From an uncultured Verrucomicrobiales bacterium (GTDB taxonomy: Bacteria > Verrucomicrobiota > Verrucomicrobiia > Verrucomicrobiales > DEV007): a stretch of DNA of 64,000 bases. Of the stretch, positions 1,282-29,356 are shown in pieces. Location of the stretch: NCBI GenBank assembly GCA_913058215.1, contig CAJXQE010000003.1:1-64000 (forward strand). The letters run 5' to 3'. Position numbers and translations under genes: made by a program. The notes under the pieces are model-generated. The model was not told the DNA's origin. It saw only the letters and a program-made list of their open reading frames with translations, and did not search any database. Position 1 is the stretch's first letter; each line of letters starts with the position of its first letter.

Positions 1282-2664
1282 ATGAAGCAACAATCCCAGA
1301 GCCTGCAAAATTTCACGAGACGTGAATGGTTACGGGTGGGTGGCTTGAGTTGCTTAGGGCTTGGAGGATCGGCTCTCTACAATCCAGCATCGGCTGCCGC
1401 TCAGGGAACATTCGGACGCGCAAAATCATGCATCATTCTCTTTCTGGCGGGAGGACCGCCTCAGCATGAAACCTTTGATCCCAAACCGTATGCCCCTTCA
1501 GGAGTCCGGGGAGAGTTTGGATCCATTGCGACCAATGTTCCCGGAGTGCATTTCTCTGAACTCCTCCCGAAGACCGCAAAGATCGCCGATCAATTGACGA
1601 TTCTTCGGTCGCTTCACACCGGAGTGAATTCGCATTCTGTGAGCGGGTATCAATTGTTCACCGGCCACACCCACGCTTCGAAAGCTGACAACCCGGCGTC
1701 GAGAAGTGACTGGCCACATCTCGGTTCCTTCGTTTCCCAATTTCGACCCAGCACTCGTTCGCCGCTGAACGCGGTGACCTTGCCGGAACCCATCGTGAAC
1801 AATCCGGGAGTCCTTTGGCCCGGACAGGACGGAGGATTTATGGGACCGTCATGGGATCCGTTTCTTTACAAAATGGGAGCACCGGAAGCCGCCGGTAGAG
1901 ATGGCTTATCGGATACGCTCGCGATTCCGGACAGTCTTTCTCTCGAGCGCCTCGCTTCCCGCCGGAAGTTAATCGACGCCCTCGACAAGGGATTGCAGTC
2001 GGCTCAAAGTGGCGACTCGCTGGAAGGGCTTGAGGAGAACCGGCGACAGGCATTTGAAATGCTGACATCAACAGACGCCCGTCGCGCTTTTAATCTGGCT
2101 GAGGAAACTTCAAAAACTCGCGATGCGTATGGGCATCATAAGTTCGGACAAAGTGTTCTTCTGGCACGGCGTCTTGTCGAATCAGGCGTTCGACTGGTGC
2201 AGGTGAATTTCCCCCGGGAAGCTGGAGATCTCAGTTCCCCAAATCCCCTTTGGGACACGCATCGCAATAACGCAGCCCGATTAAAAAACAATCTCTGCCC
2301 TCCCTTTGACCAGGCATTCAGTGCCCTGATCCTCGATTTGAAATCACGTGGCCTGCTCGATGAAACGCTCGTGGCAGTGTTTGGTGAATTTGGGCGCAGT
2401 CCAAAGATTAACACGAACGGCGGGCGAGATCATTGGGGATCCTGTTTCAGCGGTGTGGTCGCCGGTGCCGGTATCGAGGGCGGCCAGGTTATCGGGGCGA
2501 GCGATCGTCAGGGTGCCTACCCATCCGAACGTCCCATCAGCGGCCCCGAACTTCACGCAACCCTTCTTCATCGCCTCGGGATAGAGCCGAGCAGCCTCTT
2601 TCGCGATCGCCTGGGTCGGCCACTACCAATTTCGGGGGCGAAGCCAATTCGTGAATTGGTTTGA
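1282..2664 (+). CDS. DUF1501 domain protein, Tat-exported
   Basis: This 460-residue protein belongs to the DUF1501 family, a branch of the alkaline phosphatase/sulfatase fold that is abundant in PVC bacteria and has no settled function. The N-terminus carries a twin-arginine signal (RREWLRVGG from residue 13), followed by a hydrophobic glycine-rich segment and an Ala-rich cleavage region. Family landmarks are visible: FLAGGPPQHETFDPKP near residue 55, LVESGVRLVQV near 305, and FGEFGRSPKI followed by GGRDHWG near 375-390. DUF1501 genes usually sit beside DUF1549/DUF1553 cytochromes; here none is adjacent. The next gene is a sialidase-esterase. The ATG at 1282 fits the Tat signal, although no strong ribosome binding site is seen. 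Confidence 0.9.
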   Translation: MKQQSQSLQNFTRREWLRVGGLSCLGLGGSALYNPASAAAQGTFGRAKSCIILFLAGGPPQHETFDPKPYAPSGVRGEFGSIATNVPGVHFSELLPKTAKIADQLTILRSLHTGVNSHSVSGYQLFTGHTHASKADNPASRSDWPHLGSFVSQFRPSTRSPLNAVTLPEPIVNNPGVLWPGQDGGFMGPSWDPFLYKMGAPEAAGRDGLSDTLAIPDSLSLERLASRRKLIDALDKGLQSAQSGDSLEGLEENRRQAFEMLTSTDARRAFNLAEETSKTRDAYGHHKFGQSVLLARRLVESGVRLVQVNFPREAGDLSSPNPLWDTHRNNAARLKNNLCPPFDQAFSALILDLKSRGLLDETLVAVFGEFGRSPKINTNGGRDHWGSCFSGVVAGAGIEGGQVIGASDRQGAYPSERPISGPELHATLLHRLGIEPSSLFRDRLGRPLPISGAKPIRELV

Positions 2665-2785
2665 TCTCAGGCAATTATCTCGTGGATTGGTTCGAGACTC
2701 CCGACTTTTTCGAATCTCTGCGCACCGCAAACAGGGACGGCTTGGCCCTTGGCTCATCGAAGCCGGAGGTTCAGGATCACCAGCA

Positions 2786-4687
2786 ATGAACGCGCTGAGT
2801 GTTTTCCACAATTTGCATTCCAGGATTGCAGCGCTCGTCGGGCCAAACTCTGCTGGAGCATTCCGTCACTCTGAGCCCGGAAGGGCAAAACTCGTCCATC
2901 GATTCGCGGCTATCCAACTCCTCGCGGTCCTGCTCTTTTTCGGCAACCTTCGTGCCTCGGAGGATCAAGCGGTGACTATCGCTGCCGGTCCGATCTCAGG
3001 ACACATTCATCCTTCCATCTGCCGAACGATTGAGGGAACTCTGATCCTTGTCTACAGGGGTGACGGTATATTGATGTGCTCGCGCTCGACGGACGACGGA
3101 GAAACGTGGTCAACACCTGTGCCGATCGCCACCTCAGCAGTGCGCCCGGATGGAATTCGAGAGGTGAAGAAGTTCGAAATCTATCCTGGCACGATCGACA
3201 CTCTTTCCGACAATCAGACACTGGTCACATGGAATTACATCGCCGACGACAAGGCCACGGATGGGTATTACGAGAGGGCCCTTCTCTATAGTCTCAGTTC
3301 CGATCAGGGACTGACTTGGAGCGATCAAAAACTGATCGGTCCGATCGATAGCAAACACCTCGGAGCGGTTCGTCACAATGTGCTCCCCTGGAATGAAGGG
3401 CGCTGGCTACTACCCCTTCGAGTCGGACCGCCGCGGCTGTTTGATTCCAAAACGGGCAAGCTGACCGTGTTTCCGATCACCGGACAAGACGGTAAACAGC
3501 ACGAATTTCAGCAGATCACGCGAACCGCCAAGGGCGGGTTACTGGCGATGGGGCCGGTCCTGTTGCACTCGCAGGACAAAGGCAACAGTTGGACCACAAT
3601 CGAGAATTTCCCTGCTGTCCCGGACAAAAGAGACAATGCCGAAGGACGCTACCTGACGACGCTCACCGACGGACGGGTTCTGGTGACCTGGGGAATCGGT
3701 AAGGACAACAAAGGGCTTCGATACAATCTCTCGGCTGATGGTGGAAAGACCTGGGACGCGGACCGCACAGTAACCCTGCTTCCCGAAACGAGTGTCACTG
3801 CCCGCTACTACTCCGCCCGTACCGTGCAACTCGATGATCGGCACATTGGAACCGTTTTCATGAATCGAGATGGCGTTCACTTTCTGAAGGTGAATCTGGA
3901 TCGATTGCTTCCGGCCAAAGAAGGTCAGCCAGAAATTAAAGATGTCGCATTCAAAGCGACCTGCGATGGTTCCGAGCAGAGGTATGCCCGGATTCTGCCA
4001 GTGGATTTCGAACCCGGAAACCCAGTGGATCTTTTGATCGCTCTCCATGGTCACGGGAGTGATCGCTGGCAGTTTGTGCGGAGTGAACGGCCGGAATGCC
4101 GGGCCGTTCGGGATGTGGCCCGAAGTCGTCGCATGATTCTGATTTCTCCCGACTACCGGGCGAAAACCTCGTGGATGGGTCCGAACGCAGAATCCGACCT
4201 GGTGCAGATCATCGCCGATTTGAAACAGCAGTTCACAGTCAGGCGGGTTTTCCTGAGTGGCGCTTCGATGGGCGGCGCATCGAGTCTGACCTTTGCTGCT
4301 CTCCACCCGAATTTGATCGCTGGAGTCGCTGCCATGAACGGCACGGCGAACCATATCGAATACGATCGATTCCAGGATGCGATTAGGGAATCGTTCGGCG
4401 GAACCAAATCTGAGATCCCGGAAGAATACCAAAAGCGCAGCGCTGAGCTGTGGCCGGATCGCTTCACCATGCCCGTGGCAGTCACGACCGGAGGCAAAGA
4501 CAAAAGCGTGCCTCCGCAAAGCGTGCAGCGACTCGCTGAGAAGCTCAAGAAATCCGGACGCAAGGTGCTCAGCATTCATCGCGAAGCTGGCGGACACTCG
4601 ACGACCTACGAAGATGCAATTGCGGCCATGGAGTTCATGCTACGCGAAGCTGAGCTCGCAGAAGAGGAAGCTCGCCACGCTCAATAA
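2786..4687 (+). CDS. Exo-sialidase-like propeller fused to an alpha/beta-hydrolase esterase
   Basis: This is a secreted two-domain protein of about 633 residues. The first part is a sialidase/neuraminidase-type six-bladed propeller with four Asp-box-like motifs: STDDGETWS, SSDQGLTWS, SQDKGNSWT and SADGGKTWD. The second part is a serine esterase of the PHB-depolymerase/feruloyl-esterase type. It has an oxyanion-loop LHGHGSD and the nucleophile elbow GASMGG (Ser about residue 494), with a late GGHS likely supplying the His. A hydrophobic segment (AIQLLAVLLFFGNLRAS) follows about 40 residues of unusual N-terminus. The ATG at 2786 is preferred over an upstream GTG at 2651, which would overlap the DUF1501 gene by 14 bp. 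The pairing suggests removal of an acyl group and a glycosidic residue from one glycan. The substrate is not deducible. Confidence 0.82.
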   Translation: MNALSVFHNLHSRIAALVGPNSAGAFRHSEPGRAKLVHRFAAIQLLAVLLFFGNLRASEDQAVTIAAGPISGHIHPSICRTIEGTLILVYRGDGILMCSRSTDDGETWSTPVPIATSAVRPDGIREVKKFEIYPGTIDTLSDNQTLVTWNYIADDKATDGYYERALLYSLSSDQGLTWSDQKLIGPIDSKHLGAVRHNVLPWNEGRWLLPLRVGPPRLFDSKTGKLTVFPITGQDGKQHEFQQITRTAKGGLLAMGPVLLHSQDKGNSWTTIENFPAVPDKRDNAEGRYLTTLTDGRVLVTWGIGKDNKGLRYNLSADGGKTWDADRTVTLLPETSVTARYYSARTVQLDDRHIGTVFMNRDGVHFLKVNLDRLLPAKEGQPEIKDVAFKATCDGSEQRYARILPVDFEPGNPVDLLIALHGHGSDRWQFVRSERPECRAVRDVARSRRMILISPDYRAKTSWMGPNAESDLVQIIADLKQQFTVRRVFLSGASMGGASSLTFAALHPNLIAGVAAMNGTANHIEYDRFQDAIRESFGGTKSEIPEEYQKRSAELWPDRFTMPVAVTTGGKDKSVPPQSVQRLAEKLKKSGRKVLSIHREAGGHSTTYEDAIAAMEFMLREAELAEEEARHAQ

Positions 4688-4731
4688 TGTCAATTCCCGG
4701 CCAGATTACCCTGAACCTTCAATCCTGGATT

Positions 4732-6108
4732 CTACAGGCCTTTGATCTCCCAGCCTTCGCGGTATTCGCGTCTTACAAACTTGTTGGCGGCAGGCACCTC
4801 GGGGAAGCTCATTTTCCCGGCATCCCAGTTCAGCGTTTGTCCGGGGAAGCGAAGCGCAATGGTGCCCATCAAGACCATCTCGGTTGATTTGGAGGCATAG
4901 GAAAAGGGTGAATGGGTATGCCCTTCCTCCTTCCCGAGAATGGCATCGATGAATTGATGGTAGTGATGTTGCTCAGGCATTTCCGGGACTTCCACTTTTG
5001 CGGAACTATCGTTCAGGAATAACTCGGGGACTCCTCTGAAAGGCAAAAGCATCGCGCCTTTCTCACCAATCAGGAATGATCCCTGTGTAGGCCATGGCTT
5101 GTCGTCGATGTGCTTGCGCAGTTTGTCGTCCGGGTATTTATCGCCATCCAACCAGGTGAGTTTGATACTGTCACCGGCGGTGTATCTTGTTCCGGGATAT
5201 GTGTATTCCACAATCTGCCAGCGGGGAAAGGTCTCGACTCGTCGCTCGGGATGATCTGCCCATTCAGGCTCGACATCCGCTTTTACGGACTCGGGCATAC
5301 TGAGTTCGAGCGAACGAAACGGCATGTCCATAATATGACACCCCATGTCTCCCAACCAGCCGCAGCCGAAGTCCTGCCAGCCACGCCACCAGGTTGAGTG
5401 ATACACGCCGGTTTTATACGGACGCATCGGAGCGGTTCCAAGCCACGATTCCCAATTAAGCGACTCCGGCACAGGATCGCTTCCCTCAGGGCGAGGTCCG
5501 GTCGGACGGTATTTCATAGGCGGTTTGTTGGACCACATGAAGGCTTCCTTCACTTTACCGATGGCACCGGACTGAATCATAGAAACCGCCTGTCTCTCAT
5601 TAACCGTTGAGGTGACCTGAGTTCCCATCTGAGTGACCAGGCCGGTCTCGACAGCCTTGGCCCCGATCTTGCGGGCTTCGTAAATATCGTGCGTCAACGG
5701 TTTCTGGCAATAGACGTGCCGCCCTTTCTCCAGAGCGGTCATCGTGATCGAGGCGTGCATGTGATCTGGTACCGTTACGTTAATGGAATCGATATCCTCT
5801 TTAGCGAGCAATTCTCTCCAGTCCTGGTAAAATGTTGCATGCGGCACCAGCTTGCGTGCTTTCAGACTGCGGGAGACGTCGATATCACAAATCGCAACGA
5901 TTTCGACAGCCGGATGTTCCAGCATTTGCATGAAATCGGTATTCCCCATTCCGCCAAGCCCAATACAGGCATGACGAACTTTTTTATCCCCGGCTCCGAG
6001 GCTCACGCCCGAAGGCAAAACAGAGGCGCCCAAACCAAGCGCCCCGGCTTGAGTTAGAAACTGGCGGCGATCAGGTGAATTGGTGAGTGATTCATTCTTA
6101 TCAGTCAT
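4732..6108 (-). CDS. Gfo/Idh/MocA-family oxidoreductase, Tat-exported
   Basis: This 458-residue NAD(P)-dependent oxidoreductase begins with a Tat signal (DRRQFLTQAGALGLG, residues 13-27). A Rossmann fold follows: GLGGMGN at residues 50-56, an acidic strand end in AICDID, then NVTVPDHMHA and the CQKPLTHD segment, which corresponds to the EKP motif of the family. The C-terminal half is the alpha/beta substrate domain. Secreted Gfo/Idh/MocA proteins are frequent in PVC bacteria. Characterised relatives oxidise sugars to keto-sugars, and some act as glycosidases through transient oxidation with a bound cofactor. The open frame extends 46 codons upstream, but that part translates the dispersed repeat at 6137-6215, so the start at 6108 is chosen. 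The gene is convergent with the sialidase-esterase and divergent from the FGE-like gene. Confidence 0.9.
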   Translation of the reverse strand: MTDKNESLTNSPDRRQFLTQAGALGLGASVLPSGVSLGAGDKKVRHACIGLGGMGNTDFMQMLEHPAVEIVAICDIDVSRSLKARKLVPHATFYQDWRELLAKEDIDSINVTVPDHMHASITMTALEKGRHVYCQKPLTHDIYEARKIGAKAVETGLVTQMGTQVTSTVNERQAVSMIQSGAIGKVKEAFMWSNKPPMKYRPTGPRPEGSDPVPESLNWESWLGTAPMRPYKTGVYHSTWWRGWQDFGCGWLGDMGCHIMDMPFRSLELSMPESVKADVEPEWADHPERRVETFPRWQIVEYTYPGTRYTAGDSIKLTWLDGDKYPDDKLRKHIDDKPWPTQGSFLIGEKGAMLLPFRGVPELFLNDSSAKVEVPEMPEQHHYHQFIDAILGKEEGHTHSPFSYASKSTEMVLMGTIALRFPGQTLNWDAGKMSFPEVPAANKFVRREYREGWEIKGL

Positions 6109-6136
6109 ACCGAAAGTTAAGTTGGAAGACTTCAGA

Positions 6137-6215
6137 TTGCACCCCTCAATTCCAGCCGGGCCGACGCTCCGATAAAACTCCTTGGAAAAGCAAATTTCAG
6201 TCGGTAATTGATGAT
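6137..6215 (+). repeat. Dispersed intergenic repeat, copy B
   Basis: This is the second copy of the ~80-bp element. It lies in the divergent leader between the oxidoreductase and the FGE-like gene, ending 3 bp before the latter's start codon. It shares CCGACGCTCCGATAAAACTC and the TTGGAAAAGCAAATTTCAGTC segment with copy C. Copies B and C flank the FGE-like gene in the same orientation. Confidence 0.7.
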
Positions 6216-6218
6216 CCA

Positions 6219-7319
6219 ATGAAAACCCTCCGAAGCCTCGAATCACTTTTACTGGTCTTGCTCCTATCTCCCCTCTCGGCCCATTGGGCCGCCGCCGAAC
6301 AACCCGCCAAGGGAGCGACGAAGACGCTGGATCTTGGGAAGGACGTCAATCTTGAAGTGGTCTACATCCCGCCCGGCAAATTCAACATGGGCAGCACGGC
6401 TTCCGAAAAGAAATGGGCGACCGGTATCGAAGGAGGTGCCCAAGCGGGAACGGTGCGCGAAGAATACGAAGGCGAGCCGCGCCCGATGCAAGTGGGCAAG
6501 GGTTTCTGGATGGGGCGCACGGAGGTCACTTTGGGTCAGTTCCGTCGATTCGTAGAGGAGTCGGGTTACGTCACGGACGCAGAAAAACCAGGCGGCATGA
6601 CGCAAGTCTTTGATCATGAATGGGACCGGTACTATCTCAGCTCCAAAGTCAGGCACCCGTGGAAATCGATGGATGACAAGAGCTGGCGCGATCCAGGTTT
6701 CGGGATTCCGATGAAGGACAGTTACCCGGTTGTCTGCGTCAGTTACCAGGACATGAAGGCCTTTTGCCGTTGGCTGACGGAAAGGGAACGCAAGGCGGGC
6801 CAGTTGCCCGTTGACATGGAAGTTCGCCTGCCGACTGAAGCGGAATGGGCCTATTCCTGCCGCGGCGGCAGTCAGAAGAGTCATTATTTCTGGTGGGGAA
6901 ACGATCTGATGGAGGGCAAGGGCAGACTCAACATCTCAGCCGTCGACTTTCTACCCGGCCGCGACATGATCTGGCCCCTGGCGAACGCTCCCTGGAGCGA
7001 CGGTTTTGCCTATTTGTCTCCCGTGGATCACTACGGGGAAAAGGGACGAAACGGTTTCGGTCTGGCAGACATGTGCGGTGGTGTTTGGGAGTTCGTTCTT
7101 GATCATTTTGATCCGAAAGGAGGCCACGAGGAAACGCACTATGAGGACAAAGAGCTTTCAGTGTCGCGTCCTGTTTGTCGCGGCGGCAATTACTTTGATG
7201 TCCCCGGCAATGCTCGCTGTGCTGTCAGACTGGGGATCGCAAGTGTCTCGTATTCCGACTCCCGGGATGGATTTCGGATCTGCCTTGGAGTTCCGAGACA
7301 CAGCATAAGCGTGAAATAG
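6219..7319 (+). CDS. Formylglycine-generating-enzyme-like (SUMF1-fold) secreted protein
   Basis: This 366-residue protein has a signal peptide (LLLVLLLSPLSAHWAAAEQ) and one complete FGE-sulfatase (SUMF1) domain. Family signatures are IPPGKFNMGS near residue 50, GRTEVTLGQFRRFVEESGY, VCVSYQDMKAFCRWL, RLPTEAEWAYSCRGG and a late GRNGFGLADMCGGVWEFV, closing with RDGFRICLG. Despite the name it is unlikely to make formylglycine. The Cys pair that binds copper in true FGE is not conserved: the stretch after the final GG reads NYFDVPG, with Asp where the first Cys is expected. Most bacterial members of this superfamily have other or unknown roles. The frame is open 44 codons further upstream into repeat B, so the ATG at 6219, directly followed by the signal peptide, is chosen. 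Confidence 0.88.
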   Translation: MKTLRSLESLLLVLLLSPLSAHWAAAEQPAKGATKTLDLGKDVNLEVVYIPPGKFNMGSTASEKKWATGIEGGAQAGTVREEYEGEPRPMQVGKGFWMGRTEVTLGQFRRFVEESGYVTDAEKPGGMTQVFDHEWDRYYLSSKVRHPWKSMDDKSWRDPGFGIPMKDSYPVVCVSYQDMKAFCRWLTERERKAGQLPVDMEVRLPTEAEWAYSCRGGSQKSHYFWWGNDLMEGKGRLNISAVDFLPGRDMIWPLANAPWSDGFAYLSPVDHYGEKGRNGFGLADMCGGVWEFVLDHFDPKGGHEETHYEDKELSVSRPVCRGGNYFDVPGNARCAVRLGIASVSYSDSRDGFRICLGVPRHSISVK

Positions 7320-7354
7320 AATCGGCTATCAGCCGGGGGTGCTTAGCGAATTCG

Positions 7355-7437
7355 GAACCTCGCAACCCCGGCCGGACCGACGCCCCGATGAAATCCCTTG
7401 AAACAGCAAATTCCAATCAATCGATCGTGTCCGATGG
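7355..7437 (+). repeat. Dispersed intergenic repeat, copy C
   Basis: This is the third copy of the ~80-bp element, 35 bp downstream of the FGE-like gene. The core reads AACCCCGGCCGGACCGACG, then CCCCGATGAAATCCCTTGAA and AACAGCAAATTCCAATCAAT. It is in the same orientation as copies A and B. Translated on the minus strand, B and C both give a FHRGVGPAG-like peptide, which inflates open frames there. Confidence 0.7.
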
Positions 7438-7459
7438 TATTAAGGTTGCCACTTCCTAA

Positions 7460-7612
7460 GACGAAGGCTCCGTCTTTCGTTTTGACGGAAAGGACTGGCA
7501 TCGCACCGGGTCGCTCTGCACTGCGAGCCGGTTGAAGGCGTATCGGGACGGCGCAAGGTATGTTCCCACTGGCCTGAAGGCAGAAGTGACTGGCCACTTA
7601 CGGGACCGTTGA
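7460..7612 (+). pseudogene. Possible remnant of a beta-propeller or sialidase-like gene
   Basis: A 50-codon open stretch without a start codon reads VFRFDGKDWHRTGSL and then RLKAYRDGARYVPTGL before a TGA. The pattern 'VxRxDGxxWxxTGxL...RLxAYxDG' resembles one blade of secreted propeller proteins. It is flanked by non-coding sequence on both sides. I call it a decayed fragment on pattern alone; a chance open frame is possible. Confidence 0.3.
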
Positions 7613-7645
7613 ACAGCGGTGATTGCCTGAGAAAGCAATTCCTTA

Positions 7646-7966
7646 TCAGCCAGTGAACAGTCTGCTCACCAACTCGGGTCGCACATCCCGAATTGAACTG
7701 TAGCGTTCCACAAGGGCATACTCGAGCATTCCCAAAAAGACCGGGCGTTGCTTTTCCGTAAGCCTCACAAGCCGCTTCTCCATCGAAACGAACATGAAAG
7801 CGGGAAGATACCCGGGAAGGATCTCGTGAATCATTACTCTCAGGCTATAGAGTTCGGCCCGGTGATCTATCGCTGTCTCCTCGGAAAATTGCTCAGGCAC
7901 ACCATAATTTGGGCTTCTAAAAATCAATTCTTCCCGGTTCATCTGGTTTATGACAGAGCATGCCAT
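7646..7966 (-). pseudogene. Ser/Thr protein kinase C-lobe remnant
   Basis: This 106-codon open frame corresponds to the C-lobe of a Hanks-type kinase. It aligns by eye with the intact kinase at 26441-29356. NYGVPEQFSEETAIDHRAELYSL matches the SYMAPEQ...AIDARADIYAL segment, MIHEILPGYLP matches VIYEMLTGKVP, and ERYSSIRDVRPEL matches NRFSDVREISRAM. The N-lobe, catalytic HRD and DFG motifs are absent. The APE and DxxxxG positions are partly degenerate: APEQ has become VPEQ and the conserved Gly after YSL has become Arg. It is therefore a truncated, inactive relic. The frame begins with an ATG at 7966, but translation is doubtful. Confidence 0.65.
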
Positions 7967-8145
7967 CGACCAAGCCGCTGTCGGTGCCTACCCCGTCGTC
8001 ACAATTCGGAACCTGGATGGTATTCGGACTTCGCTGCATCAATTCCAAGCCCGGCTTCCGGCAGCAATCAAGCATCCGGGTTAAAGAACAATTCCCCCCC
8101 GGCAGTTAGCAGTCAGATTGACAAGCCTTCGTAACAGTGACTAAA

Positions 8146-21649: not shown

Positions 21650-22801
21650 CTAATCCCTCTGAATTGAATGCTGCAGCACCGGTATCACGGCCGCTTGCGC
21701 CCGGGAACCCGGCAAAGTCCAGCAGCCAGCCACCGAAACACCCTTCTCCAGATCAACCGCCAACCATGCCCGGTGCGATCCGAGCGAACCTGAATGTGAA
21801 AGCCGGATTGTCTCACCGTTTCTCTTCATTACTTTCCAGCCGAGTCCATACTGACTCTGTTTACTTCGCGGATTTCCCGCATCCCGAATCATCTCTTTTG
21901 GCACGCCCAGGAAATGGGTGCCGTTCCCCTTCCATCCTTCACTGATTGCTATTCCAAAGAGAGTCATCTCTTCCGCAGTAGTATAGAGACTTCCTCCTAT
22001 CAGGGGAAGTCGATGGTTCTGGCCCAGCCGATGCGGTGACATTTTTTCAGGAACACCCGTCGCGATTTCATCGAGCGGAAATTTTACGGCAGGAAAGTAG
22101 GTCGTTCTCGTCATACCCAAGGGCCGACAAACCCTTTCCTGAAGGAGTAACTCAAATGACTTTTCAGTCACGAGTTCCGCAACCCTGCCAAGCAGACAAT
22201 AGCCTGCGCCGCTGTAGGCATATGCACTTCCGGGGTTCGCACTCAATGATGATAAAGCGATTCCATCAACCGATTCTTCGAGGCTCAATCGGAAGTCACG
22301 AATCCACTTCGACTCCCGGAGAGTCATCCTCGATTTCTGGCTGTAGATTCCAGCCCGATGGGAAAGCAATTCCTCCACCGTCGGGGAACGGGCCGCCAAT
22401 CCCCCACCCTTTACCATAACTGAACCATAGGCGGGAATCCACCGACTGATGGGATCATCCAACTGTATCGGAATGTCCCCGTCCGCGATCAGAGACAAGG
22501 CACAAGCAGAAGCGAATGGTTTGGAACAGGAAGCCACGAGGAAGAGAGTTTCCGCGTCGACCTTCTTCTCGCTTCCTGCTGAGACGGTTCCAAACTTACC
22601 TGAATACAGAATCCCTGATGAGTCTCGGATCGCCACCTGAAGCCCAATCACCTCACCGCGTTTTGCCAGGCCATCCAGTTCATCACCAAGAGATTTAAAC
22701 CCCTCCTGACTCAATGCTCCAATCGGTGAGATAGCGAGCAGCACCGAGGCTCCAACGGAGAGCATGGCAGCTGACGGAGCTGAGAGCGGATCTAGATTCA
22801 T
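21650..22801 (-). CDS. Serine beta-lactamase-fold hydrolase (class C-like / esterase)
   Basis: This is a secreted beta-lactamase-family protein of about 383 residues. The SxxK nucleophile motif is SCSK at residues 91-94. The second motif is YSG (AYAYSGAGYC), which replaces the YxN of true class C enzymes, and the third is HSG (RLSHSGSLGS) in place of KTG. This combination is typical of the wider class C/esterase/DD-peptidase group, so activity against beta-lactams is uncertain. A signal peptide (LSVGASVLLAISPIGALS) follows the start. The gene is divergent from a BlaI-type repressor and a BlaR-like protease, with 253 bp between start codons. That is the layout of inducible beta-lactamase loci. 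An upstream in-frame start at 22855 is less likely. Confidence 0.88.
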   Translation of the reverse strand: MNLDPLSAPSAAMLSVGASVLLAISPIGALSQEGFKSLGDELDGLAKRGEVIGLQVAIRDSSGILYSGKFGTVSAGSEKKVDAETLFLVASCSKPFASACALSLIADGDIPIQLDDPISRWIPAYGSVMVKGGGLAARSPTVEELLSHRAGIYSQKSRMTLRESKWIRDFRLSLEESVDGIALSSLSANPGSAYAYSGAGYCLLGRVAELVTEKSFELLLQERVCRPLGMTRTTYFPAVKFPLDEIATGVPEKMSPHRLGQNHRLPLIGGSLYTTAEEMTLFGIAISEGWKGNGTHFLGVPKEMIRDAGNPRSKQSQYGLGWKVMKRNGETIRLSHSGSLGSHRAWLAVDLEKGVSVAGCWTLPGSRAQAAVIPVLQHSIQRD

Positions 22802-22987
22802 GAGCTGATCATAGAATACAAGCGAGCTCACTTCCGAGAACAAACCAGTACGCACTCAAGTGGAGTTTTTGAATTTCATGAGTGCTAAGGAATTGAGGTA
22901 GGGCGACCGAGGGTTTCGTAGCGTAAAGCGACACACACCAAAAAGCGAAACCTTGTCAGCAGGACCTTCTCAATGGAGTGCAATCCC

Positions 22988-23009
22988 AAAAACCAAAAAA
23001 TCAGTTTTT
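22988..23009. promoter_or_regulatory. Upstream BlaI-like operator
   Basis: This imperfect 22-bp palindrome has arms AAAAACCAA and TCAGTTTTT around four A residues. Each arm differs by one base from the arms of the operator at 23029-23050. Its start is 41 bp from that operator, close to four helical turns, so two repressor dimers could bind the same DNA face on either side of the promoter. Confidence 0.6.
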
Positions 23010-23012
23010 AAA

Positions 23013-23040
23013 TTGACACCGACCGTTTAAAAACTAATAT
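23013..23040 (+). promoter_or_regulatory. Promoter of the blaI-like gene
   Basis: TTGACA (23013-23018) is a perfect -35 box. After a 16-bp spacer comes TAATAT (23035-23040) as a -10 box, lying inside the downstream operator. A transcript would start near 23047, only about 8 nt before the ATG at 23055. The message would be nearly leaderless, which agrees with the absence of a ribosome binding site. Repressor bound at 23029-23050 would block this promoter directly. Confidence 0.65.
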
Positions 23041-23050
23041 TTTAGTTTTT
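23029..23050. promoter_or_regulatory. Main BlaI-like operator
   Basis: This is a perfect inverted repeat with 9-bp arms, AAAAACTAA and TTAGTTTTT, around TATT. It covers the -10 box and ends 4 bp before the repressor's start codon. Position and symmetry fit a binding site for the winged-helix dimer encoded directly downstream. Confidence 0.7.
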
Positions 23051-23054
23051 AGAA

Positions 23055-23444
23055 ATGAGTGAAACACATCTGAGTCGACGCGAGCGACAAATCTTAAGGG
23101 TGATCTATCGCTTGAATCAAGCCACGGTGATCCAGGTCCAGGAAGAGATGGAAGACGCGCCTTCTCTCAATGCGGTGAGAACAATGATTCAGATCCTGGA
23201 AACAAAGGGCCATCTGAAGCGAAAGAAAAAGGGCCGGGAATTTGTTTACTCCCCTTCAAAGAATCGGGTTTCGGCAGGATTTTCTGAATTGCAGGGTGTC
23301 CTCGAAACTTTTTTCGGCGATTCCATCGAGCAGGCCCTGGCTGCGCATTTGTCGAAGGGAAAGGCAAAAATCTCAGATGGAGAATACGACCGTTTGACGG
23401 AGCTCATCGAAAAAGCGCGGGAATCCGAAGGAGAAAAATCCTAG
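23055..23444 (+). CDS. blaI: BlaI/MecI-family transcriptional repressor
   Basis: This 129-residue protein is a penicillinase-repressor-type regulator. Residues 5-70 form the winged helix (LSRRERQILRVIYRLNQATV, VQEEMEDAPSLNAVRTMIQ, LETKGHLKRKKKGREFVYSP), with the recognition helix around SLNAVRTM. The C-terminal half (residues 75-125) is the helical dimerisation region that carries the protease-sensitive site in known members. It precedes the M56 protease gene by 9 bp, and two palindromic operators lie just upstream, one over its own promoter. Autorepression is therefore likely. Known relatives are inactivated when a BlaR1/MecR1 protease senses cell-wall antibiotics. Here the sensor differs (see the next gene). 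Confidence 0.93.
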   Translation: MSETHLSRRERQILRVIYRLNQATVIQVQEEMEDAPSLNAVRTMIQILETKGHLKRKKKGREFVYSPSKNRVSAGFSELQGVLETFFGDSIEQALAAHLSKGKAKISDGEYDRLTELIEKARESEGEKS

Positions 23445-23453
23445 GCAGTCAAT

Positions 23454-25403
23454 ATGGAAGCTCACAATATATTATTGGAATGGGGAGTTCGTAGCTCGCT
23501 TGCGATTGCCCTGGTCGCAATCATCTTATTTTTCAGCGGCGGAAAATACCTCGCTCCCAAAACACGTTTCAACGTTTGGTTTGGAAGCCTCGTCGCGGTA
23601 TCCGGACTCATCTTCGCAATGAGTTGGCTGCCTGAATGGAGAATTCTGGATCCAGGCGCACAGGATTCAAGCAACTCGATTGCACCCTTTGGAATCTCAA
23701 ATGAAACGAAGCCGGTAGCCACAGATATAAAAGATGAGATCGGAAATTCGAATCTCAGAAATAGTGATGAGCGAGACTCATCCGAAATGCAATTCCCCTG
23801 GTTGCTCGCGATTTGGTTGGTGGGAATCGTGCTTCTTATCGTGCGATTGCTGACGAGCTTCTATCTCTTGAGCCGAAATCATCAGCCCGTCTCAGAAGGT
23901 CACGCCGGCTTGGGACTGTGCGAAGAACTCTGTCAGGAAATCGGACTTCAGTCGCCCGTTCAATTGGTCGAAGGTGAAGGGTCGGCAATGACGTGGGGAA
24001 TTTTCCGACCGAAGATATCCCTGCCGAAGGCGGCAGTCGACTGGCCGGAGGAACGCCTTGAAATGGTGCTTCGGCACGAGATCGCTCATTTGAAACGGCG
24101 TGATCCCCTTTTGCTTGCGCTATCCCAGATTGTCGCCGCAGCAGCGTGGTTTCATCCCGGTATCTGGATCATAACGAAACGTCTTAGCGTTGAAAGGGAA
24201 TCAGCGACGGATGAATTGGTACTCGCTCAGGGAATTCGCCCTTCCAGCTATGCGACAGCGATTCTGGAGCTTTCCGTTCTTTCGCCAGCAAAAGCTCGTA
24301 GCGGAGTTCCATCGCTTGCGCTTTGCGGCATGAGTGACAGCGCGAATTCAAAATCAGATGTCGAGAAGCGGGTTAAGCGAGTGCTCGATCCGCCCCCGGG
24401 TGATAAGGGGAAGTTTGTGAAAGGTGTATCACTCTTGATCCTTGGTCTGATTGTTGCAGCCGGGCTTTTGGCCTTTGTGATTTCCAGGAAGAAGCCGACA
24501 TCGGAAGTGTTCGATTCGCCTATAACGATCGTGATTGACGCCGGACATGGAAGCCATGACTTCGGTGGAAAAACTGACAAGGCAATCGAAAAAAACCTGG
24601 CTCTCGATATCTCCAAACGAGTCGAACTGAAACTCAGATCATCCGGAAACAAGGTGGTGATGACGCGCAATGATGACACTTTTCTCACACTGGACCAGCG
24701 GATGGAAATTGCGAACCAGAGTGATCAGCCGGCCGTGATGGTATCCATCCACTGTAACTCCTCTTCGAAGGGAACTACCCGGGGAATCGAATGTTACACC
24801 GGAGGATTGATTAGCGAGGCTAACGAGTTGTCTGAGGCCCTGGGTGGAACGATATTAAGAAATTCGGTTGCTGAAACAGGGGCTGTTGATCGGGGACTGA
24901 AGAAAAGTAGTCGTATTAAATTCTTTCGATCCCGAACGGTACCGACTGTGTTGATCGAATGCGGATTCATCACTCATCCTGACGAGGTCGTAGATCTCAC
25001 AAATCCCGAATATCGTGAGAAACTCGCAGTTGGAATTACCAATGGAGTGATTGAATTTTTGTCGGCTACTCCGGTTGAAAGCAGATCGACCACCGTGAAC
25101 GTGACAGAGGCGATTGTTCCAGCCGAAACAAAATTGGAACCAGATAACGAGGGCGGGAAAAAAGATCCGAGCGATCTTTGGTATCGAAGTTTTTTGCGAT
25201 GGAAAAAAGCGGAGAGCCACGAGAAAGGGAGCAAACCACTGGCGGCGCTGAATGAATACAGTGAAGCCAAAAACATGATGGTCGGTCTGTATCAGGATTT
25301 CCCCGACTTCCAGCCGGAGATCGTTCCGAAGCGACTAGAGCTTTTGTCTGAGAAGATTGTGGAATTGAAGGACCGCCTGCAGAATGAGGATACTGATCAG
25401 TGA
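23454..25403 (+). CDS. BlaR1-like M56 protease fused to a peptidoglycan amidase (Amidase_3)
   Basis: This 649-residue protein has BlaR1 topology. Transmembrane helices lie at ~16-31, 40-58 and 112-135, then a cytoplasmic M56 zinc-protease domain (HEIAH at 208-212, with ERESATDE as the downstream Glu ligand region), then a fourth helix (~325-345). The periplasmic part is not the usual penicillin-binding sensor but a complete Amidase_3 (N-acetylmuramoyl-L-alanine amidase) domain, residues ~355-545. It has zinc ligands His365 (DAGHG), Glu379 and His433 (SIHCN) and catalytic Glu502 (LIECGF), all intact. A helical tail (residues 560-640) carries W and P landmarks of a TPR-like tail seen in PVC proteins. 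It is co-transcribed with blaI. I infer a sensor that binds or cuts wall fragments and then cleaves the repressor. Confidence 0.92.
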   Translation: MEAHNILLEWGVRSSLAIALVAIILFFSGGKYLAPKTRFNVWFGSLVAVSGLIFAMSWLPEWRILDPGAQDSSNSIAPFGISNETKPVATDIKDEIGNSNLRNSDERDSSEMQFPWLLAIWLVGIVLLIVRLLTSFYLLSRNHQPVSEGHAGLGLCEELCQEIGLQSPVQLVEGEGSAMTWGIFRPKISLPKAAVDWPEERLEMVLRHEIAHLKRRDPLLLALSQIVAAAAWFHPGIWIITKRLSVERESATDELVLAQGIRPSSYATAILELSVLSPAKARSGVPSLALCGMSDSANSKSDVEKRVKRVLDPPPGDKGKFVKGVSLLILGLIVAAGLLAFVISRKKPTSEVFDSPITIVIDAGHGSHDFGGKTDKAIEKNLALDISKRVELKLRSSGNKVVMTRNDDTFLTLDQRMEIANQSDQPAVMVSIHCNSSSKGTTRGIECYTGGLISEANELSEALGGTILRNSVAETGAVDRGLKKSSRIKFFRSRTVPTVLIECGFITHPDEVVDLTNPEYREKLAVGITNGVIEFLSATPVESRSTTVNVTEAIVPAETKLEPDNEGGKKDPSDLWYRSFLRWKKAESHEKGSKPLAALNEYSEAKNMMVGLYQDFPDFQPEIVPKRLELLSEKIVELKDRLQNEDTDQ

Positions 25404-25560: not shown

Positions 25561-26322
25561 CTAAAGGCTTCCAGTTGTGACGCCTAGAATGAAATTCATT
25601 TCGTCCTCAAATTCCTCAGGAGAAACCGTGTCCTGAACGAGGGCCGACAGAGACTTCTGAAACCTCGTGCGAAGGGCAATCATTTTCTGTTTCACGTTTT
25701 CCTCAGATGTCTGAAGCTTCAGTGCAATCTCCCTGTAGGTAATGCGATCCGCTTCGCTGGATCTTCCGCTAAGATTACGAATGAGAAGTTGGAACTCCTC
25801 GAGCTTCCCCTTCTCATTGTAGGCCCCTGATAGATTAGCCATCACCTTTTGGATAATTGACTCCGCCCATTCCCGATCAAAGGCGAGGTCAGGCGAATCG
25901 TGATTTTGGGCTCCTGAATCATACAGACTTTGAGCAAGATCAAAATCCATCGAAATATGAGTGATGGCCTTCGGTCCTCCCCTCTTTTGTGCCGACTCCT
26001 TCCGATATTCCTTCTTCCGAAAGCGATCAAGAATCGTTTTGAGATAGGAGCGCAGTTTGGCGCGACCGGGTTCCCATTTAACCAGTTGTCCCTGCGAAAT
26101 CAGTTGGGTAAGAGAGAATTCCTGAACGAGGTCTGATGCATCGTGATGGCTTTCTCCCTGAGCTCTCATGAAAACGTACATTGAGTTCCAATACCGATTG
26201 AGGAATTCCTCCATCGCCTTCTTGGACTCAAGGGGATTGTCCGACTGCAGTCTCTGATGAAGCGTCAGGCTGGTATTGGGGAATTGCTGTGGCTGCCCGT
26301 CGCCTGAATCGGAATCGCTCAT
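25561..26322 (-). CDS. ECF-type RNA polymerase sigma factor
   Basis: This 253-residue sigma factor has a region 2 with YVFMRAQGESHHDASDLVQEF (residues ~49-69) and KWEPGRAKLRSYLKTILDRF. A region 4 helix-turn-helix (TYREIALKLQTSEENVKQKMIALRTRF) lies at ~195-220. The linker between sigma 2 and sigma 4 is long and contains an AFDREWAESIIQKV helix. This is the style of the large ECF groups expanded in Planctomycetes and Verrucomicrobia that are encoded near Ser/Thr kinases. It lies 118 bp downstream of the giant kinase on the same strand, and no FecR-like anti-sigma gene is adjacent. Control by phosphorylation is a reasonable inference. Confidence 0.93.
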   Translation of the reverse strand: MSDSDSGDGQPQQFPNTSLTLHQRLQSDNPLESKKAMEEFLNRYWNSMYVFMRAQGESHHDASDLVQEFSLTQLISQGQLVKWEPGRAKLRSYLKTILDRFRKKEYRKESAQKRGGPKAITHISMDFDLAQSLYDSGAQNHDSPDLAFDREWAESIIQKVMANLSGAYNEKGKLEEFQLLIRNLSGRSSEADRITYREIALKLQTSEENVKQKMIALRTRFQKSLSALVQDTVSPEEFEDEMNFILGVTTGSL

Positions 26323-26440: not shown

Positions 26441-29356
26441 TCAGGGTACCTCCTGAGATATTTCGGATTTGTTGGCTGGCTTCCCAACTGAATCCAATTC
26501 GGCTTCCGAAGCAATTGGTTCGTCGGACTCCGGAGCAGGCTCGATCCAGAGTAATTTGGCCCCAACTTCCCCTACCAAAATGTATAATCCCATGTCTAGA
26601 GCGACTCCGATCGAGTTAATTTGATCCACCAATCCAGCGCCATTGTCATCTCCCCATGCTGTCCACGATCCGTCAGGGTGTTGCGCCGCACTGAAAAAAT
26701 CTGCCGATTCGACCCGAATAACCGGACCCATTTCTTTCGGTGGAATCTGAGCATCCCCAATTCGGGGATTGAGGATATCTTTCGAATGCCACCAGGTAGC
26801 GACACGACCGTCCTCATACAGTCCCGTCACGTGTCTCATCCCGGTAGCCAGTTGAACTAATTTCCGTGGATCGTCCGGCGGATCAAAGAATCCAAAGTCA
26901 GAGTGCCAGCAAATGGCCTTACCATCAGAAGTGAGCATGGCCACCATTCTCCCATAACCTACCACGCTAACTACGTCCTTGAGAGTCTTCACTCGATTGA
27001 CGACATATTGATTTTCCTTGATCCAATCGTCCTCCGCCGCCAACGCAAGTCGCCCGTCAGAAGTAACGATGAACGCAACATTTCCTCGTATCCAGACGTC
27101 GACAGCCCGCTCCACCGGCGACATCAATGGAAGATGGTCATGGTGCCTTGGATCCATTGGAACGAGTTTATCCGGCCACTCGATAGAAAACGAACTTCGG
27201 ACGAGTCGAAGATCAAACCGCTGATCCAGGCTCGGTATCGTGCTAACCATTTCGCCGCCGATCCGAGTAGCACTCCAATTACCACCCGCCCACATTGGTC
27301 GATCCACTGAAAGAATATCATTCAGCCCCTCCGCCTTACTGATATCAATTCCACCGTCGTTCTCCTCCCATAGCCTGAGGACACCGCCTCGCCGACGTAC
27401 AGCATCATACTCCGCGCTGATTCCGGGTCCGACATGAGGAAGGAGCCTGTCGAGATCCACCTCAACAGCATCACCACTAAGTTCTCCCTCTCCAATCACC
27501 ACGCGGAATCCGCTAATGGAGTCCCGCGCATTCGGCGGCTGAGAGCCCCGGCGGGAGGACAGGAGGCTTCCCGAAATGCTTCCAAACCACGACGATCCCC
27601 GCATGACCCGCCTGTTTTGATACAGTGATTGCCAATCCTGACACCATTCCCAGGCATTGCCACCCATGTCGTAGAGCCCGTATTGATTTGCTCGAAAACT
27701 ACCCACAGGGGCGGTGCGGTCAAAGCCATCTTTATAGCTACCAATCTGTCGCCTGACTCTCAACGGACTTCTCGTTGCATCTCCACCAAAATAGCTCCCG
27801 GCACCCTTGGGGGGAGGAAATCCAGTTCCCCAGGGAAAAATCTTCGTCACGACACCATCCTTCACTATCGGGAGCAATGCGGCATCTTCTTCTAAACCTA
27901 TCCCCACTGCACAACTCCATTCGTGATCGCTCGGCAATCGATAGTGTTTGTCGTCGTCCAACACTCCCTTTTCCCGCTCGACTGCCGTAAGCCATTCGCA
28001 AAATGCCGTCGCATCCGTCCAACTGACATTCAATGCCGGATGATTCTCTCCCTGAGGGAATTCCACCTCGGGCCATTCACGATCCGGATCGCTTTCGACA
28101 AATGCTGCATAGTCTTCAATCCGAGTTTCCCAAATGCTGAACAGGACTCTCTTGCCATCACTGGGACCGCCGGTAATCGGAACAGGCAAAAACTTCATTC
28201 CCAGGCTGTTCTCAAAAGGATCTTCCAGGGCTTGTTTCGTCGTCTCGTCAATGAGGAATGAATTTTCAGTCAACTCATCTTTCCTGTCGTATTCCCTCTT
28301 AAAATGGGTAGCGAGCAAGCCAACGACCAGTACGCCCGCGACTGTGGCGACGATCGACACCGTTCGGTTCAACTTCCCTTTCACGGGCGCTCCTGACTCG
28401 AATTTTCCCTTCCTTCCCATCGCTCGCGATATTTCACGCACATCCGAAAATCGATTCTTCGGATTCGGCTCCATCGCGCGTAGAACTGCCCGGTCAAGCC
28501 TCTTGTTTCGACGGGGCAATTTCGAAGTCGGGGGTGGAAAATTCCCCGCCGGCACCTTCCCCGTGAGCATTTCATAGATAACGACACCGAGAGCGTAAAT
28601 ATCGGCCCGGGCATCAATCGCTTTGGCATCCTCCAACTGTTCCGGTGCCATGTAGGAAGGCGTTCCCATTCCTGCACCCGTCATCGTCAGCGACACATTC
28701 GTATCCTGCTTCGCTATCCTTGCGAGTCCAAAATCACCGATCTTCACTGCTCCGCTCTTGTCGACGAAAATGTTCCCGGGTTTCACATCGCGATGCACGA
28801 CTCCCTGTTCGTGCGCGAAATGAAGCGCGTCGCACACCTGTGTGATCACTGAGAACGCAATTGCCTCATCCACCTCCTCCGACCGGATCAATCGTTGCAG
28901 ATCGCAGCCATCGACATACTCCATGACCAGAAAATGAAACCCTTCGCGAACTCCAAAATCGTGAATTCCAACAATGTTGGGATGACTCAGCATCGCCATC
29001 GCTTTGCCCTCGCGCTCGAATCTTTCCTGAAATTCGGGATCACCTGCCAACTTTGGATTTAGAATCTTGATCGCAACCATGCGATCAAGGCTCTTCTGCC
29101 GGGCTTTGAACACGGCGCCCATCCCACCAGCTCCCAGTCGGTCCAACATCTCGAAGTCCGGAAATAGACCCTGCAATTCGTCTCTGTCCGCATAAGCAGC
29201 TTCCGCCCCTTTCCCTCGAGGAGGCTTCTCTGAAGGAATTGTTTCGTCATGCTCAAATTCAGGACTCATCGCTCCCTGGACCAGACAACGGCTACATACC
29301 GGCAACTGCCCTTCGCTTCGAGGAATAAACTCAGTTCCACAATTCTCACACTTCAT
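26441..29356 (-). CDS. Giant Ser/Thr kinase with zinc ribbon, FGE-like and RCC1-like domains
   Basis: This 971-residue membrane kinase is built from five parts. Residues 1-24 form a zinc ribbon (Cys3, 6, 21, 24). Residues ~68-330 are a Hanks-type kinase with all key residues: GAGGMG at 75-80, Lys97, HRD Asp190, Asn195, DFG at 208-210, then GTPSYMAPEQ. One transmembrane helix (SIVATVAGVLVVGLLATHF) lies near 340. Residues ~385-620 form a periplasmic FGE/SUMF1-type domain (NSLGMKFLPV, WETRIEDYAAFVE, LNVSWTDATAFCEWL, YGLYDMGGNAWEW) without the FGE Cys pair. The C-terminal ~330 residues are an RCC1-like propeller (VVGYGRMVAMLTSDGKAICW, GLYEDGRVATWW, PDGSWTAWGDDNG). External ligand sensing by the last two domains and signalling to the downstream sigma factor are inferred from the layout. 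Confidence 0.93.
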   Translation of the reverse strand: MKCENCGTEFIPRSEGQLPVCSRCLVQGAMSPEFEHDETIPSEKPPRGKGAEAAYADRDELQGLFPDFEMLDRLGAGGMGAVFKARQKSLDRMVAIKILNPKLAGDPEFQERFEREGKAMAMLSHPNIVGIHDFGVREGFHFLVMEYVDGCDLQRLIRSEEVDEAIAFSVITQVCDALHFAHEQGVVHRDVKPGNIFVDKSGAVKIGDFGLARIAKQDTNVSLTMTGAGMGTPSYMAPEQLEDAKAIDARADIYALGVVIYEMLTGKVPAGNFPPPTSKLPRRNKRLDRAVLRAMEPNPKNRFSDVREISRAMGRKGKFESGAPVKGKLNRTVSIVATVAGVLVVGLLATHFKREYDRKDELTENSFLIDETTKQALEDPFENSLGMKFLPVPITGGPSDGKRVLFSIWETRIEDYAAFVESDPDREWPEVEFPQGENHPALNVSWTDATAFCEWLTAVEREKGVLDDDKHYRLPSDHEWSCAVGIGLEEDAALLPIVKDGVVTKIFPWGTGFPPPKGAGSYFGGDATRSPLRVRRQIGSYKDGFDRTAPVGSFRANQYGLYDMGGNAWEWCQDWQSLYQNRRVMRGSSWFGSISGSLLSSRRGSQPPNARDSISGFRVVIGEGELSGDAVEVDLDRLLPHVGPGISAEYDAVRRRGGVLRLWEENDGGIDISKAEGLNDILSVDRPMWAGGNWSATRIGGEMVSTIPSLDQRFDLRLVRSSFSIEWPDKLVPMDPRHHDHLPLMSPVERAVDVWIRGNVAFIVTSDGRLALAAEDDWIKENQYVVNRVKTLKDVVSVVGYGRMVAMLTSDGKAICWHSDFGFFDPPDDPRKLVQLATGMRHVTGLYEDGRVATWWHSKDILNPRIGDAQIPPKEMGPVIRVESADFFSAAQHPDGSWTAWGDDNGAGLVDQINSIGVALDMGLYILVGEVGAKLLWIEPAPESDEPIASEAELDSVGKPANKSEISQEVP

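Follow-up and report, generated by a model that had tools for sequence, protein, structure and literature searches.

The BlaR1/BlaI pair is the textbook example of an antibiotic-sensing protease switch, and Staphylococcus detects penicillin with such a protease and its repressor. Solved BlaR1 has four transmembrane (TM) helices and a re-entrant loop, the motifs H201EXXH and E242XXXD, and Arg294 near the site (PMC9834060), while its sensor is a slowed class-D-like enzyme (PMC7593790). Here, a locus of related build is described from an uncultured Verrucomicrobiales bacterium (assembly GCA_913058215.1, contig CAJXQE010000003.1, positions 1 to 64,000; this whole stretch of 64,000 nucleotides is referred to as the window), in which a gene for a BlaI-type repressor precedes one for an M56 protease fused to a peptidoglycan amidase of the Amidase_3 family. 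We lean towards the reading that a switch of the BlaR1/BlaI type has here been remade to monitor the cell's own peptidoglycan, i.e., an autoregulated wall-state receptor. In its favor stand the fusion itself, the intact metal-binding and catalytic residues, the BlaI partner, the operator-like dyads over the promoter, the recurrence of the fusion and its repeated origin.

Like BlaR1/BlaI and MecR1/MecI of Staphylococcus and Bacillus licheniformis, the window system combines an M56 gluzincin protease bearing HEXXH, EXXXD and four TM segments predicted by hydropathy with a cognate repressor gene that apparently shares its operon, operator-like dyads that overlie the promoter, a predicted external C-terminal domain after TM4 and, in the window copy, a divergent serine hydrolase. 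Unlike in those systems, a class-D-like penicillin-binding domain has given way to Amidase_3 as the ectodomain (joined by M23 in relatives), there is no recognised beta-lactamase, and the operator pattern occurs at its own locus only. Another point of comparison is provided by LytH-ActH of S. aureus and CwlD-GerS of C. difficile: the window amidase is likewise a CwlD/LytH-like Amidase_3 without an autoinhibitory helix that is tied to a governing partner, and ActH is also transmembrane, like the M56 part. Here, however, a BlaR1-type protease takes the partner's place; it is part of the same polypeptide as the amidase, and a repressor is encoded alongside. The pairing of Amidase_3 with an M23/LytM domain, found in three of the four fusions described below, recalls AmiA/AmiB/AmiC and their M23-fold activators EnvC and NlpD, but the M23 domain of the fusions keeps its metal ligands and lies on the same chain, the amidase has no blocking-helix insertion, and the pair is tied to gene regulation. 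A review of M23 proteins lists members with M56 or amidase domains, without a function (PMC9662197). Finally, the BlaI_0696 and BlaI_1845 regulons of C. thermocellum are, like the one proposed here, tiny and autoregulated, with two dyads per target and GACTAT-like half-sites; unlike here, BlaI and BlaR1 come from a Firmicute, and the available part of that report does not discuss their external domains as amidases (PMC8457756). A literature search returned no description of M56-Amidase_3(-M23) receptors with a BlaI partner and operators.

A BlaR1-like protease with a predicted amidase ectodomain

The receptor belongs to the M56 family, as its match to Peptidase_M56 (PF05569; E 6.2e-25) reaches 88.4 bits against a curated cut-off of 31, and it carries the gluzincin motifs H208EIAH212 and E249SATD253. 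Hydropathy delimits TM1 (residues 16-34), TM2 (41-59), TM3 (117-135) and TM4 (325-343), together with a weaker segment at 219-237. A profile of M56 homologues, the receptor included, aligns with solved BlaR1 (8exp) over profile positions 8-335, almost the entire N-terminal half (E 1.5e-23), with H208, E249, D253 and R306 in register and R306 falling on chain position 294. After TM4, only Amidase_3 was detected by Pfam and Foldseek, and no class-D-like penicillin-binding domain with SXXK was found in the receptor. The Amidase_3 (PF01520) match is full-length, covering profile positions 1-173 of 174 (E 1.7e-41, 142.6 bits), and the zinc ligands His, Glu and His as well as the catalytic Glu are all present. 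Lacking a penicillin-binding domain and scoring far below the curated cut-off of the NCBIfam model blaR1_generic (69.6 bits against 400), the receptor is, by these profiles, not a BlaR1 by membership but BlaR1-like in build, and it probably functions like BlaR1.

In an AlphaFold model of the whole receptor, the predicted local distance difference test (pLDDT) score exceeds 90 across most of the amidase domain, and the tail forms three helices; the M56 half, with pLDDT below 50 in many parts because no M56 homologues were supplied as input, was not interpreted. Foldseek assigns the predicted ectodomain to the Amidase_3 fold (4rn7, template-modeling score 0.92 by target; also CwlV, CwlD and LytH). 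The amidase domain can be aligned with 4rn7 and CwlV over its full length, and no autoinhibitory helix was found in it. The three-helix module that follows occupies the position held by M23 in the other three fusions and belongs to no Pfam family. It also occurs N-terminally in long coiled-coil proteins of the family (45-51% identity in the best cases), of which the two that were read out have signal-peptide-like leaders, and 55 of 75 family genomes contain matches to it.

An earlier note on this DNA, made from the letters and a list of open reading frames (ORFs), had described the locus as three genes; these lie where it placed them, and Pfam agrees with its assignments (PF00144, Penicillinase_R, and Peptidase_M56 followed by Amidase_3). 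Its description of a complete Amidase_3 in place of the penicillin-binding domain is borne out, with His365, Glu379, His433 and Glu502 correctly numbered, and the external domain, which it allowed might prove to be an unrelated fold, is predicted to have the Amidase_3 fold. The HEIAH motif lies at residues 208-212 as the note had it, and where it reported a four-helix topology, hydropathy gives four segments with one weaker segment beside them. The domain order was also right; the helical C-terminal tail, the operator dyads and a role of the amidase as output were missing from that account.

The repressor and its putative operators

The repressor is a member of the Penicillinase_R family (PF03965; 81.5 bits against a cut-off of 22.6, E 7.8e-23), similar to solved CopY (2k4b) and BlaI (1p6r). 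The -35 element of the window promoter lies between two operator-like dyads and its -10 element within the proximal one (Table 1). The same arrangement of dyads recurs at all four blaI genes that accompany M56-Amidase_3 fusions, i.e., those of the window and of the loci L039, L040 and L101 (see below): a dyad with a 14-bp core is located at -19 to -24 relative to the start codon and is preceded, at a distance of about 39-41 bp, by a second one; L040 has a third between the two. The cores read ACTAATATTTTAGT in the window, ACTGAAAATTCAGT in L039, ACTACAACTGTAGT in L040 and ACCAAATATTTGGT in L101, the half-sites differing with the repressor lineage across the four loci. L040 has the divergent repressor (24% identical to the window BlaI), and its sites fit the TACANNTGTA type recorded for CopY (PMC7253601). 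The window and L101 repressors are 52% identical and have the common pattern AAAACYAAWWWWTYRGTTTT, for which match counts are not independent because the pattern was derived from the same sites. The inverted repeats typical of BlaI/MecI/CopY operators are thus present in all four loci as sequence dyads at which binding is predicted, and the stronger indication that they are operators would be their common position and spacing across the four.

In the 7.67-Mb assembly, exact matches to the operator pattern are confined to the window locus, and a genome-wide operator search for a distal regulon, allowing up to two mismatches, gave off-locus hits at control level. Since the pattern occurs only here, the regulon probably comprises no more than the operon, to which the divergent hydrolase may or may not be added, and the system would probably control mainly its own receptor. 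This confinement also favors the amidase as an output as well as a sensor.

Table 1. Features of the window locus and of related loci; coordinates refer to the window or, for the L-numbered entries, to the locus named.
Feature	Coordinates	Strand	Details
M56-Amidase_3 receptor gene	23454..25403	+	649 aa; ORF list, Pfam, residues and hydropathy
Peptidase_M56, BlaR1-type gluzincin	23475..24293	+	residues 8-280; H208EIAH212, E249xxxD253; R306 at BlaR1 Arg294 position
Amidase_3 ectodomain (predicted)	24528..25052	+	residues 359-533; His365, Glu379, His433, Glu502 intact
C-terminal three-helix module	25167..25385	+	residues 572-644; predicted structure and family searches
BlaI/CopY-type repressor gene	23055..23444	+	129 aa; 9 bp upstream of receptor gene; PF03965
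Proximal operator-like dyad AAAACTAATATTTTAGTTTT	23030..23049	+	9/10 pairs
Distal operator-like dyad AAAACCAAAAAATCAGTTTT	22989..23008	+	imperfect; 41 bp upstream of proximal dyad
Sigma-70-like promoter TTGACA-16-TAATAT, blaI-receptor operon	23013..23040	+	2 overlapping hits; shuffles mean 0.2
Secreted serine hydrolase, family S12/PF00144	21650..22855	-	likely start ATG 22801; system association uncertain
L039 fusion (own-genome paralogue, contig C23)	4699-6876		725 aa
L040 fusion (same-genus genome)	5790-7937		715 aa
L101 fusion (another genus of family)	2669-4885		738 aa
L259 kinase fusion (G748:C25)	1575-5393		1273-aa frame
L260 kinase fusion (G077:C3)	4217-6586		790-aa frame
L263 Amidase_3-M23 gene (window's own genome, G000:C64)	1856-3082

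Recurrence and repeated origin of the fusion

In total, four M56-Amidase_3 fusion genes with the same domain order were found in three genomes. Peptidase_M23 follows the amidase in L039, L040 and L101, where the window copy has its helical tail instead. Each of the four has a BlaI-type gene directly upstream, which overlaps or touches the receptor gene in those three loci and is separated from it by 9 bp in the window; the co-occurrence with BlaI that the earlier note had thought worth checking holds in all four.

The M56 domains of the four fusions are not monophyletic in their tree, and a topology that holds them together is rejected (p-AU 1.2e-7, approximately unbiased test); that of L040 falls within a supported clade of ordinary M56 proteins of the same order. 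For the amidase halves, one clade is not rejected (p 0.20). The rejection of a single M56 clade means that at least two M56-BlaI pairs acquired an amidase, or that it passed from one pair to another, so that by this tree the joining of M56 and amidase has occurred at least twice; the finer branching order is unsafe because of long branches.

This recurrence bears on the explanation that the fusion is a product of chance or decay, or an assembly error, without joint function. The rarity of the fusion (3/75 family genomes) and the lost catalytic Glu of the paralogous L039 amidase would suit it, but four independent open genes share one domain order, arose at least twice and each adjoin BlaI, with motifs intact in three, and the window copy sits within a 65.8-kb contig; this explanation is largely refuted and, in our judgment, scarcely credible. 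The earlier note had held that its proposal would fail if the fusion were absent from relatives or arose from an assembly join: the three further fusions provide the relatives, and an assembly join is rejected on the same grounds.

A broader contig scan with the window protein gave matches to the amidase region only and no fusion, viral contigs matched the amidase part only, and a plasmid search returned no record covering 80% of the window protein. Among the other M56 proteins read in the window's own genome, no amidase was detectable beyond the window protein and the C23 paralogue. Those proteins (L041-L047) have varied C-terminal parts and most adjoin BlaI genes, from which BlaI-M56 pairs with swapped ectodomains look common in this genome.

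Sensor, effector or both

Peptidoglycan hydrolase domains are also found on other membrane proteins of the order, and the occurrence of Amidase_3/M23 parts on a membrane Ser/Thr kinase of an order-level relative counts in favor of the wall-sensing reading. One such protein (L259) consists of a Ser/Thr kinase, a hydrophobic run or several TM segments, Poly_export, Amidase_3 and M23; its Amidase_3 profile match spans the first half of the profile and the domain is catalytically degraded. Another order-level relative (L260) encodes a Ser/Thr kinase, five TM segments and M23. In the window's own genome, L263 combines a signal-like leader, Amidase_3 and M23. All 110 good-quality genomes of the order that were sampled encode a stand-alone M23 protein to which the M23 domain of L040 is up to 63% (commonly 55-60%) identical.

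Six Amidase_3 domains were compared. The zinc ligands are kept in all six. In place of the catalytic Glu, L039 and L263 have Asp and L259 has Thr, and the Glu is retained by the window copy, L040 and L101, i.e., by three of the four M56 fusions. Retention of the metal pocket while catalysis is lost is what would be expected if binding becomes the function; the three fusions that still have the Glu may combine binding with cutting.

The same residues are central to an alternative in which the amidase is an effector only, anchored and activated by M56 much as LytH is by ActH or CwlD by GerS, with BlaI and M56 sensing some other signal and the fusion tying the dose of the enzyme to the switch. 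The change of the catalytic Glu to Asp in the L039 fusion and its loss in the L259 kinase fusion, with the zinc ligands staying, speak against this, as does the fact that the same position in BlaR1 is held by a sensor which is itself a slowed enzyme (PMC7593790). It is nevertheless consistent with the intact Glu of the other three fusions, with the purely local operator, with the presence among the nearest solved folds of CwlD and LytH, whose structures were each determined together with an activating partner (PMC8496864), and with the lack of an autoinhibitory helix, given which the amidase activity would need some other control. We regard an effector-only role as unlikely, if worth keeping in view.

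A proposed route from wall to operator

In the wall-sensing reading that we favor, the M56 protein would reside in the inner membrane, with its zinc-protease site in the cytoplasm and Amidase_3 in the periplasm. The amidase would engage stem-peptide-bearing peptidoglycan, and its occupancy would shift upon wall damage or remodeling. The last TM helix would convey this change to the protease domain, leading to cleavage of the BlaI-type repressor, which would otherwise be bound to the two tandem dyads covering the promoter of its own operon. Derepression would then yield more receptor and perhaps also more of the divergent serine hydrolase. Membrane orientation, BlaI cleavage and amidase chemistry are here predicted by homology to described proteins, and we hypothesize transmembrane signaling with the state of the peptidoglycan as its signal. 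Since the outward part is a wall-cutting enzyme, the switch probably reads wall state and not an antibiotic, and since the receptor is itself an amidase, sensor and effector are probably one protein.

A precedent for BlaI systems that read wall products is the binding of a gamma-D-Glu-diamino-acid dipeptide to BlaI/MecI of B. licheniformis and S. aureus, with BlaR proposed as the trimming peptidase (PMC3305447). This also suits a different route, in which the external amidase would free stem peptides that are imported, trimmed (possibly by M56) and bound by BlaI as a coactivator, and the amidase, with M23 in three relatives, would yield the precursor. Purified BlaR1, however, cleaves BlaI directly with no further component (PMC9834060), and we consider the coactivator route improbable.

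Several observations weigh against the wall-sensing reading. The statistics of the dyads are modest when each locus is taken alone: the figure is 7 in 1000 shuffles for the window 20-mer and 1 in 1000 for that of L101, and in L039 and L040 a single 20-mer does not reach significance; the geometry repeated across the loci is the stronger point. The search gave no distal regulon, a puzzling outcome for a sensor unless its output is the receptor itself; targets could be absent from the search because the genome is 93% complete. The window amidase keeps its catalytic Glu and so may simply be an enzyme, and the structural model is poor over the M56 half. The fusions are also rare, and 384 class and 388 phylum genomes yielded none besides the window's own genome, a weak negative because only three candidates per genome were scored.

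Taken with the kinase fusions, these data allow a wider proposal, which we put forward tentatively and hold to be somewhat short of probable: peptidoglycan hydrolases (Amidase_3, often with M23) would be interchangeable ectodomains of transmembrane receptors in this order, having been attached to BlaR1-type proteases on more than one occasion and to Ser/Thr kinases as well. In these receptors the enzyme or a catalytically weakened copy would report wall state to gene expression or phosphorylation, and the amidase-BlaR1 form would sense peptidoglycan directly and induce itself. Should the M56-Amidase_3 receptor act with BlaI as a sister switch of BlaR1/BlaI, its sensor slot filled by a peptidoglycan amidase, the protease-repressor module would be a general converter of wall-enzyme engagement into gene expression, which would suggest beta-lactam sensing as one specialization of wall sensing. 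It would also offer a tractable receptor for how Gram-negative bacteria outside the model groups monitor peptidoglycan, an idea made testable by the recurrent fusion to protease and kinase signaling domains.

The divergent serine hydrolase and neighboring genes

The divergently encoded hydrolase matches PF00144 (E 7.5e-46), contains the SxxK motif and has a signal-like N-terminus; the ATG at 22801 is the more likely start, as it would give a signal peptide. Its score against the best NCBIfam class C model is 45 bits for a cut-off of 415, it falls far under every beta-lactamase cut-off, and among solved chains it comes closest to carboxylesterases, a D-peptidase and other S12 peptidases. The genome contains 20 PF00144 matches. 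Around four hydrolase relatives (69%, 65%, 44% and 43% identical), the roughly 1.5 kb read on each side contains neither a BlaI nor an M56 gene; among the loci fetched up to that comparison, hydrolase and BlaI occur together only in the window; and such a neighbor is absent from the other three fusion loci. No hydrolase-side promoter was found in the intergenic region. As this region is shared with blaI, the hydrolase may be co-controlled; judged from the loci compared, it is not a conserved part of the system.

A beta-lactamase identity of the hydrolase is rejected on its scores and the lack of linkage, and the locus does not qualify as a bla divergon. The earlier note's label of a bla-type locus was accordingly overstated, and an established place for the hydrolase in the system is not supported by the unlinked relatives and the other fusion loci. 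The corresponding explanation, a beta-lactam resistance locus with the hydrolase as its inducible beta-lactamase and a receptor that would notice beta-lactams indirectly, by way of wall damage, draws on the divergent arrangement, on the inclusion of class C enzymes in the PF00144 fold and on the operators in the shared intergenic region, but the scores, closest chains, abundance of PF00144, unlinked flanks and missing promoter listed above, together with the lack of a penicillin-binding domain, make it very improbable.

Other genes lie near the fusions. Divergent from the paralogous blaI of L039, at 7628-8077, is a gene whose product is of the LTXXQ (CpxP/Spy-like) kind and has a signal-like leader, which hints at envelope stress, and the gene divergent from blaI in L101 looks like a sulfatase. 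Downstream of the receptor gene in the window, on the other strand, positions 26441-29356 encode a 971-aa Ser/Thr kinase-like protein with further C-terminal domains, and a sigma-factor-like gene (25561-26322) adjoins it, both judged by eye.

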